From Desulfobulbaceae bacterium (GTDB lineage: Bacteria; Desulfobacterota; Desulfobulbia; Desulfobulbales; VMSU01): DNA of 39,788 nt. Made by a program: the position numbers and the translations under genes. This document shows, in pieces, positions 8,223 through 11,341 of this stretch. The stretch's first letter is position 1. Each line of letters begins with the position of its first letter. The notes under the pieces were generated by a model. That model saw nothing but the letters and a program-made list of their open reading frames with translations, had not been told where the DNA came from and made no database searches. The DNA is taken from positions 1-39,788 of the forward strand of contig JADGBM010000016.1 of the NCBI GenBank assembly GCA_015231515.1, written 5' to 3'.

Positions 8223-8528
8223 TTAAGTATCGGACAGAATCAACATTCGCTCGCTGCGCCAGATTCTCACAATTCGAATTATATTATGATCACGGCGATA
8301 AACGATTCTAAAAGGCGGGCGAATTAACTCTCGAAGATACAATAAGTCAAATTCTGGAACGATGCGTCCCATGTCTGGTTGATCGACAAGTAACTCTACG
8401 TCCTTGATGACATTTCCAACTAATGTTTCACCTACGTGAGCAACCTGTTTCTCACTGTAATATTCAAGCACATCTTCCAAATCTCTAAGAGCTGATTCGG
8501 CAAATGTAATTTTGATCTTTTTAGACAT
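8223..8528 (-). CDS. RelE/ParE-superfamily toxin
   Basis: A 101-residue protein with the compact RelE/ParE fold pattern: an N-terminal strand and helix pair (KITFAESALRDLEDVLEYYS), then PDMGRIVPEFDLLYLRELIR and the terminal strands FRIVYRRDHNIIRIVRIWRSER. The GR...LRELI...FRIVYR spacing is that of ParE-type toxins, which inhibit DNA gyrase, although some members of the superfamily cleave mRNA. Which target applies here cannot be told. It starts one base after the stop of the Phd-type antitoxin, the usual antitoxin-first operon. Confidence 0.88.
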   Translation of the reverse strand: MSKKIKITFAESALRDLEDVLEYYSEKQVAHVGETLVGNVIKDVELLVDQPDMGRIVPEFDLLYLRELIRPPFRIVYRRDHNIIRIVRIWRSERMLILSDT

Positions 8529-8529
8529 C

Positions 8530-8799
8530 TTACTTAATTTTCAAGCGTTTTTTTACGTCAGCAAGACAAACTTCTCTACCTTCTTCCAGGTCAACCATTC
8601 CTTCCACAACCGCTTTCATAAAAGCCTGTTGTTCAACGCCAGCCTCGTAATCTTGTAACGCCTGGACAACAGCAACGCCTCGTCCTCTGCTCGTAAGAAC
8701 TACTGGCCTATGGACCTCTTGAACCTGCTTGACTATTTTGCCAGGATTCACTTTGAGAACGCTAACAGGGACAATATCTTCAGAAAATTTCGTATTCAT
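8530..8799 (-). CDS. Phd/YefM-type antitoxin
   Basis: An 89-residue protein with the Phd/YefM N-terminal DNA-binding domain: VPVSVLKVNPGKIVKQVQEV, then RPVVLTSRGRGVAVVQALQDYE. The acidic, variable C-terminal part (about residues 55-89) would wrap the toxin. Antitoxins of this family repress their own operon by binding the promoter with toxin as co-repressor. The ATG at 8799 is preceded by GGAGG. It is directly upstream of the ParE-like gene. Confidence 0.88.
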   Translation of the reverse strand: MNTKFSEDIVPVSVLKVNPGKIVKQVQEVHRPVVLTSRGRGVAVVQALQDYEAGVEQQAFMKAVVEGMVDLEEGREVCLADVKKRLKIK

Positions 8800-9206: not shown

Positions 9207-9326
9207 TTATAAATTTTCAACTGGCAGACCAGCCTCTTTCCAGTCAGCGAAAATGGCTTGATTGATCTCCTTGTAAGAAAGTTTCATGAGTTTACGGTAG
9301 GCGTTGTAACTCCGCCCACCGGAGAA
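9207..9326 (-). pseudogene. 3' fragment of a rhodanese-like gene
   Basis: Thirty-nine in-frame codons read FSGGRSYNAYRKLMKLSYKE, then INQAIFADWKEAGLPVENL and a stop. SGGRS is the second half of the rhodanese active-site loop (CxSGGRS) and the rest matches the C-terminal helix and strand of single-domain rhodaneses. The codon that should be the catalytic Cys is TGA (9327-9329), and nothing upstream in any frame looks like the first rhodanese half; instead the transglutaminase gene ends 33 bases away. The simplest reading is a 5'-truncated relic. Confidence 0.6.
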
Positions 9327-9361
9327 TCAGGCCCGGCGTATATCGGCATGCCTTTCTCTGA

Positions 9362-10249
9362 TTACGGGGCATTGACATCGAGTATTTTTTTAAGGCTTTC
9401 TGTGTCGATCAGGCCATAGCCGGTATCTGTTTGCTGGTGAAAGGTTATGGTATATTTGAAATTGGCTGGATCGAGCCAGTCCAGTGTGGTCTCACCAGCC
9501 TGGGCAAAGGGGTACATCAGATAGTTAACAGGTTCTCCAGCTTGGGGCGGGTTCAGGATGAGATCGCGCCCTTCGCTCAGGCCGATACGGTAGGCGTCGA
9601 TGCCGCCCCAGAAGTATTTACGGTACTCTGTGGTCTTTGAATCATCGAGTTGCAGTTTTTCAACCAGCATCATCTTCCTGACATCGGCAGGGTCAATCGG
9701 GACCCAGCCATAACCAGGCAGATAGAACTCAGCCCAGCAGTGCTGCCAGGTGGTGATATCCTGAGTCTCCTTCTTTCCCATCCTGATTCCGAAAACCTAG
9801 CGGGCTGGAACACCTACGGCCCGTGCCAAGGCAATGTATATGGAGCTGATATCGGCGCACTTGCCACCCGGATCCTGGAGCAGCTGGCAGACATCGCCTG
9901 TGCCGCATCCCCTAGTATCAGGGTTGCGGTAGGTGTTCTCCACCGTCCAGTCGTAAATGGCTTTGGCTTTGGCAAGAACACCTTCCTTTCCTTTTGTTAT
10001 CGTAGCTGCCAACGATACTATCTGGTCATTAAAAGGCGCTAGGCCAGTCGGTGCCAGGTATATCGCATAATCTGCCGGATCCCAGGCCGCTTCTCTGGCC
10101 GGAAAATCACGACGTATCACCTCTTTCCCTTGTGGGTGGTGCGATAAATCAAAATCCATGGCCACTAGGCCGGAGACGGTGTTTGCCTGCGCCGGCGCTG
10201 TTATTGCCCAGAAGACAGCCAAAACTGTAAATGCAAATAAATTTTTCAT
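9362..10249 (-). pseudogene. Secreted transglutaminase-like protein, interrupted by an in-frame TAG
   Basis: Residues 1-22 form a signal peptide (ending APAQA). The transglutaminase core follows: GGKCADISSIYIALARAVGV with the catalytic Cys, WQHCWAEFYLPGYGWVPIDP with the catalytic His and Asp. Between them a TAG codon (9797-9799) sits right after GVPAR; the reading frame is unchanged and continues VFGIRMGKKET. One base change from GAG, CAG or AAG explains it. The ATG at 10249 has GGAG 11 bases upstream; a GTG at 10261 is also in frame. The gene is divergent from the LysR gene. Both halves look well conserved, so the break is recent, an error, or recoded. Confidence 0.82.
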
Positions 10250-10396: not shown

Positions 10397-11341
10397 ATGG
10401 ATATTCATCATCTGCGCATTTTTGCTGCGGTCTATCGTTCAAAAAGTTTTACAAAGGCTGCCCGAGAGACCAACATCTCTCAGCCTACCGTCAGTGAGCA
10501 CGTTAAAAACCTTGAAAGTGAGCTCGACTGTCGGCTCTTTGATAGGGTCGGAAAAACGATTGAGCCAACGGCTTCGGCCAGGAAGCTGTATCCAAAAGCG
10601 CTCCAAATTATTGATGAACTCTCTCTAATAAAAGCGGAGATAATTGGAGGAGAAAACGCTGTGAAGGGAGAAATTGTTTTTGGCGCTAGTACGATTCCAA
10701 GTACCTATATTCTCCCAGCCAAAATCAAACAGTTCCAAAAGATCTACCCTGATATCTTTTTTCAAATACGGATTGAAGATTCCTTGAGAATCAATCAGTT
10801 AATAATGGAAAACGAACTGTCCTGCGGCATTGTCGGTGCAAAAATTGAGACAAACTCGCTTCAATATGAACCGTTTTTTAAGGATCAGCTCATTCTTGTT
10901 GCTTCGCCCAAACTAATTCAAAAGAAAACTCTTCAGTTAAAAGAGTTGTCTAGGCTGCCATTTGTACTGAGAGAAAAAGGGTCGGGAACGAGAAAGTCGA
11001 TGGAAGAAAATTTTAAACGGATTGGCTTTGCAATTGATAAAAAACAGGTCGCGGCAGAATTCAGTTCAACAGCCGCCATTAAAGAAGCGGCAAAACATGA
11101 AATTGGTGTCGCGATTATCTCACAGATTGCTGTGCGTGATGAGTTGAAAAATGGCTCTTTGCGTGAAATTGCTATGCGAAATGAAAAAATGGAACGATAC
11201 TTTTACCTTGTTAGCCATAAGAACCGGACGCTCCCAACTCCGTATCTGAAATTCTGCCAATTCCTGAAACAGCAGAAATCTGAAACAAAATCGACCTTAA
11301 TCGGTGCTAAGCCATTGTCAGAAAATAACCTGGCCGTTTAA
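10397..11341 (+). CDS. LysR-family transcriptional regulator (selenium-metabolism-associated type)
   Basis: A 314-residue LysR regulator. Residues 1-60 form the winged HTH (FTKAARETNISQPTVSEHVK), and the rest the two-lobe effector domain, beginning GEIVFGASTIPSTYILPAKI. The phrase GASTIPSTYILP with SRINQL-like continuation and VGAKIETN is what I recall from the LysR subgroup tied to selenium metabolism, but that subfamily call is from memory. The last ten codons (KPLSENNLAV) lie inside a 35-bp sequence repeated at 7368, so the natural C-terminus may have been replaced. It is divergent from the transglutaminase gene across 147 bases and may control it. Confidence 0.85.
   Translation: MDIHHLRIFAAVYRSKSFTKAARETNISQPTVSEHVKNLESELDCRLFDRVGKTIEPTASARKLYPKALQIIDELSLIKAEIIGGENAVKGEIVFGASTIPSTYILPAKIKQFQKIYPDIFFQIRIEDSLRINQLIMENELSCGIVGAKIETNSLQYEPFFKDQLILVASPKLIQKKTLQLKELSRLPFVLREKGSGTRKSMEENFKRIGFAIDKKQVAAEFSSTAAIKEAAKHEIGVAIISQIAVRDELKNGSLREIAMRNEKMERYFYLVSHKNRTLPTPYLKFCQFLKQQKSETKSTLIGAKPLSENNLAV

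Follow-up and report, generated by a model that had tools for sequence, protein, structure and literature searches.

A transglutaminase gene interrupted by an in-frame TAG codon in a Desulfobulbaceae bacterium is very probably a recent pseudogene of a double-rhodanese fusion

The window analysed is the whole stretch of 39,788 nucleotides from contig JADGBM010000016.1 of the Desulfobulbaceae assembly GCA_015231515.1. Its minus strand contains a frame running from 10249 to 9362, with a signal-peptide-like start at 10249 (recognized by eye, without a predictor) and a TAA at 9362-9364. The frame comprises a transglutaminase core identified as PF01841 (96 bits with the stop entered as X, also recorded as 98.6 bits; cut-off 23) at 9368-10117, minus strand. 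Codon 151 is a TAG at 9797-9799, minus strand, placed as in the original prediction between the two halves of the core: in the numbering of the window frame, Cys131 lies 5' of the TAG, and His170 and Asp186 lie 3' of it. Members of the transglutaminase-like superfamily (PF01841) share a core with Cys, His and Asp in that order. The window copy presents the profile and the three residues, but it differs in the TAG that breaks the continuous frame between Cys131 and His170 and in an N-domain that is mostly deleted. The frame is kept and both flanks are conserved, as had been claimed, with 97 relatives aligning at 55-75% identity over stretches that span both sides of the TAG; given these matches and the PF01841 core, chance does not account for the open frame. 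Between codons 152 and 200 the options for reinitiation are in-frame ATG codons at 157, 193 and 194, all located past the Cys and lacking a signal-peptide-like stretch. Promoter-like sites (3 versus a shuffled mean of 2.0) and terminator-like sites (2 versus 1.6) were in no clear excess.

The set of relatives comprises 17 strong loci (L012-L028) from 57 related genomes, none of the same genus as the source, and 80 loci retained from 161 in a genome collection. The weak matches of the 57-genome search were dropped, 12 of them being L029-L040 (27-39% identity) and the others having no locus. Comparison of the residue at the TAG position, proposed in the original prediction, identified a sense codon, Glu in all 97 relatives; after dropping five duplicate loci, the remaining 92 contain 59 GAG and 33 GAA. 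L046 is an open frame of 566 codons formed by the N-domain, the transglutaminase core (PF01841) and two rhodanese domains (PF00581 in two stretches). Open fusions of about 565 amino acids occur among the closest relatives in L046, L047, L012 and L013, all from Desulfobacterota MAGs, the last three being 69-76% identical to L046 and the window core 70-77% identical to the four. L014, about as close (75%), stops after the core. By coverage of L046, 14 of the 97 are fusions, 3 stop matching within the rhodanese part and 80 have no tail in the same frame, some of these being cut by contig ends. One of the 14 fusions, L100, shows two stops in the alignment.

Other forms of the tail were identified in several relatives. 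In L045, L049 and L050, three related MAG copies, the match to the rhodanese tail breaks off early, and L020 presents a short out-of-frame tail remnant (L020:210-305, L046 residues 536-563) directly after the core. Tail loss may be recurrent in the family, assembly errors being a possible source of some cases. L015 and L081, two loci identical in the core, resemble a split fusion: the transglutaminase gene has no tail, and upstream of it, in a different frame (L015:504-1166, L081:4001-4663), is a double-rhodanese stretch with 63% identity to the L046 tail.

The window copy shares the segment order of the four open fusions; these read through about 565 codons, whereas three deletions and two in-frame stops interrupt the window copy. 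With L046 as the tblastn query, the window returned the pieces 4-48, 100/110-364 (with one TAG), 447-457 and 528/529-564, ordered and in two frames, so that N-domain, core and two rhodanese domains are present as segments and not as one frame. The first segment (10118-10249, minus strand) contains the start, the signal-peptide-like stretch and the first strand of the N-domain, 44 codons to GKEV, with 56-57% identity to L046 4-48. It is followed at 10117-10118 by the junction of deletion 1, an in-frame loss of about 64 codons (L046 49-112), and by the core, 77% identical to L046 110-364. The junction of deletion 2 (9359-9367) marks a net loss of about 237 bases (about 79 codons) comprising most of the first rhodanese, and the in-frame TAA at 9362-9364 lies within it. 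The remnant EKGMPIYAGPD (9326-9358), from the end of the first rhodanese or the linker, matches L046 447-457 in 11 of 11 residues. At 9324-9325 deletion 3 removes a net of about 211 bases (about 70 codons) of the second rhodanese and changes the frame, leaving an out-of-frame remnant of its C-terminus at 9207-9323 (86-89% identity to L046 528/529-564) with a TAA near the family terminus. The final 36 residues of the family are still recognizable there, behind two in-frame stops, and for this reason the ancestor is taken to be the fusion form. Deletion sizes were calculated by hand from the L046 and window coordinates, and all these segments and junctions lie on the minus strand.

A model of L046 (mean pLDDT 85.2) gives the N-domain six strands, of which deletion 1 removes about five. 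The deleted stretch is covered in one piece in 95 of 98 loci and in two adjoining or overlapping pieces in L067 and L078; it is absent from the window copy, and none of the 97 relatives lacks it. The position of the junction rests on the tblastn pieces. In the MAFFT DNA alignment the first window segment came out misplaced, with no clean gap, and that alignment served only for reading the junctions by eye. The breakpoint is ambiguous, as the relatives have KEV- or EEV-like codons at both ends. GAGGTG was identified by eye at both ends of the deleted stretch in L012, the second end being less perfect in L045 and L046, which suggests short direct repeats as the source of deletion 1.

The original prediction described a transglutaminase gene readable from signal peptide to domain end and otherwise intact. 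The signal-peptide-like start and the core are there, but about 64 codons of the N-domain between them are gone, and the description as intact does not survive the comparison with L046, given the three deletions, the second in-frame stop and the out-of-frame C-terminal remnant. With a nonsense codon, a large in-frame loss and two tail deletions accompanied by a stop and a frame change, the window copy is very probably a recent pseudogene, and its TAG a nonsense codon of the ordinary kind. The ancestor would most likely have been a protein of about 565 amino acids with a signal peptide, a domain of six beta strands, a transglutaminase-like core with Cys, His and Asp, and two rhodanese domains, whose export we infer from the start of the frame. 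Its function would have been lost in this lineage through the three internal deletions and the nonsense codon. If the gene is transcribed, translation would terminate after 150 residues, and the product, which would lack the catalytic His and Asp as well as most of the N-domain, would not be expected to be an active enzyme. An intact second copy was not found elsewhere in the own assembly, a draft of 225 contigs and 95% completeness in which read errors or missing genes are possible.

The TAG had been attributed to a fresh nonsense mutation or a sequencing error. Either fits the codon itself, which is Glu in every relative and lies in a core whose conserved columns show no trace of long decay, but neither accounts for a gene broken beyond the TAG. 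An error of sequencing or assembly at this base, in a gene broken anyway by deletions, is quite unlikely: the codon is one base from the Glu codon of the relatives and the assembly is a draft, but no sign of error appeared in the analysis, and a true nonsense codon is unsurprising in a gene with other lesions. Correction of the TAG as an error would leave the gene broken, since the three deletions would remain. Apparently a gene should be set against the full architecture of its relatives before a single stop is taken as its only defect.

The age of the decay was estimated from near-invariant columns, defined as those on which at least 97% of the covering relatives agree. Excluding the TAG column, none of 61 such columns is changed in the window copy, which corresponds, assuming free drift, to a neutral divergence of at most about 2.2% per site (95%). 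The test has limited power because 49 of 93 sequences, the window copy included, score 0. This count was relied on because in pairwise dN/dS comparisons dS was saturated or undefined, and it suggests that the decay is recent. The differences in the out-of-frame tail at codon positions 1, 2 and 3 were 2, 1 and 18 against L047; 4, 2 and 20 against L046; 3, 2 and 18 against L048; and 4, 2 and 17 against L012. They sit mainly at third positions, so that selection on the protein probably acted on the tail until a short time ago.

The core without excess change at conserved columns and the frame open across deletion 1 speak against the pseudogene reading, as they fit an enzyme that was trimmed and working before the TAG arose. 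The deletions could have left a trimmed transglutaminase, still made and useful, with the TAG arising afterwards as an independent and very recent nonsense mutation. Deletion 1 is in frame, the TAA at 9362-9364 would end a trimmed protein just past the core, the 61 columns are unchanged, and many relatives (80 of 97 loci, with the reservation on contig ends given above) have no rhodanese tail in frame with the core. Against this, the domain that loses about five of its six strands to deletion 1 is retained by all 97 relatives, and identity to L046 is no lower in the out-of-frame tail (86-89%) than in the core (77%), so that deletion 3, too, looks recent. Such a two-step history is unlikely, if less so than a sequencing error, and the recent pseudogene with deletions and an ordinary nonsense codon is preferred.

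Translation of the TAG as pyrrolysine, which the original prediction noted for some Desulfobacterota and wished to see excluded, is rejected for this gene, in view of the lack of pyl machinery above cut-off, the Glu column, the presence of RF1 and the common use of TAG as a terminator. The profile search of the own genome covered PylS, PylB and PylD; the best scores were 28.1 bits for PylS (cut-off 178.15), 73 for PylB (348.2) and 20.4 for PylD (150.05). MttB had no match in the genome. No CUA anticodon was present among the 37 tRNAs detected, an incomplete set with none labelled Ile, obtained with a general tRNA model that could miss an aberrant tRNA-Pyl. RF1 was identified (527.8 bits, cut-off 423.25), and TAG terminates 12 of 26 hand-picked long open reading frames of the window. 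The absence of pyl genes is strong and not absolute, because the assembly is 95% complete, no tRNA is labelled Ile and PylC was outside the search. Within the order, 5 of the 257 genomes do have PylS above its cut-off; these belong to two other families, and in the own family none of the 10 genomes listed, the own genome included, has PylS above cut-off. Reading of the TAG as pyrrolysine or by another amber suppressor is thus extremely improbable, the more so in a gene broken further on and at a column where no relative conserves a TAG. MttB is an example of a pyrrolysine-containing protein; with such proteins the window copy has in common an in-frame TAG in a conserved region, and it differs in the pyl machinery, which was not found, in the Glu of the relatives and in the lesions elsewhere in the gene. 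The recoding lead is settled in this way: although the frame around the TAG is conserved and a few genomes of the order carry PylS, the gene has multiple other lesions.

A short tRNA-Pyl-like pattern, with as many as 2 mismatches allowed, matched the own genome 7 times and a reversed control 38 times. L164 and L166 aside, ARAGORN finds no tRNA in three of the 7 matches (L162, L163 and L167), and the other two fall within genes that it calls tRNA-Phe and tRNA-Trp.

Among the solved folds that the L046 model matches are 3isr, a putative cysteine protease from Cytophaga hutchinsonii, and 6g49, the periplasmic domain of TgpA. The second is matched by sequence as well, and the alignment of 3isr probably corresponds to the transglutaminase part. 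A literature search for transglutaminase and rhodanese in Desulfobacterota returned no paper, and the titles and abstract openings of the literature found do not mention a fusion of transglutaminase-like and rhodanese domains.

A divergent and open LysR regulator gene is located at 10397-11341, plus strand, outside the pseudogene itself, and belongs to the selenium metabolism-associated subfamily (NF040786, 297.5 bits, cut-off 250). It is possibly a regulator of the transglutaminase gene. PMC5322559 describes a LysR subfamily tied to selenium use. A divergent LysR within 800 bases was identified in 17 of the 97 relatives, among them L021 and L105, whose cores are identical; 72 have none, and the loci of 8 are too short for a judgement. 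All 10 scanned of the 17 passed the NF040786 cut-off: L021, L075, L077, L079, L087, L106, L107, L109, L116 and L118. No divergent LysR was seen at the 14 fusion loci. The core of the family is fused to two rhodanese domains in some lineages and faces a selenium-type LysR regulator in others. Tentatively, and with a low probability, an exported transglutaminase with or without the rhodanese tail could form part of a selenium-associated LysR regulon in relatives labelled Desulfobulbaceae and Geobacter, this lineage having just lost the enzyme and kept the regulator.

A gene for a double-cubane-cluster reductase was identified after the transglutaminase gene in L046 (6447-8491), L047 (6729-8779) and L050 (6233-7528), and in L046 and L047 it is followed by an activase gene. 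The LysR and double-cubane-cluster neighbours are leads on the role of the family and not on the TAG. Downstream of the pseudogene, the minus strand of the window contains, at 8223-8799, a Phd/YefM-type antitoxin (8528-8799) and then a ParE-type toxin (8223-8528). Finally, two rhodanese-like matches with in-frame TGA codons were identified in the own genome, G000:C95:4079-4495 (L171, two codons) and G000:C29:13754-14038 (L172, one codon), which are possibly selenoproteins.
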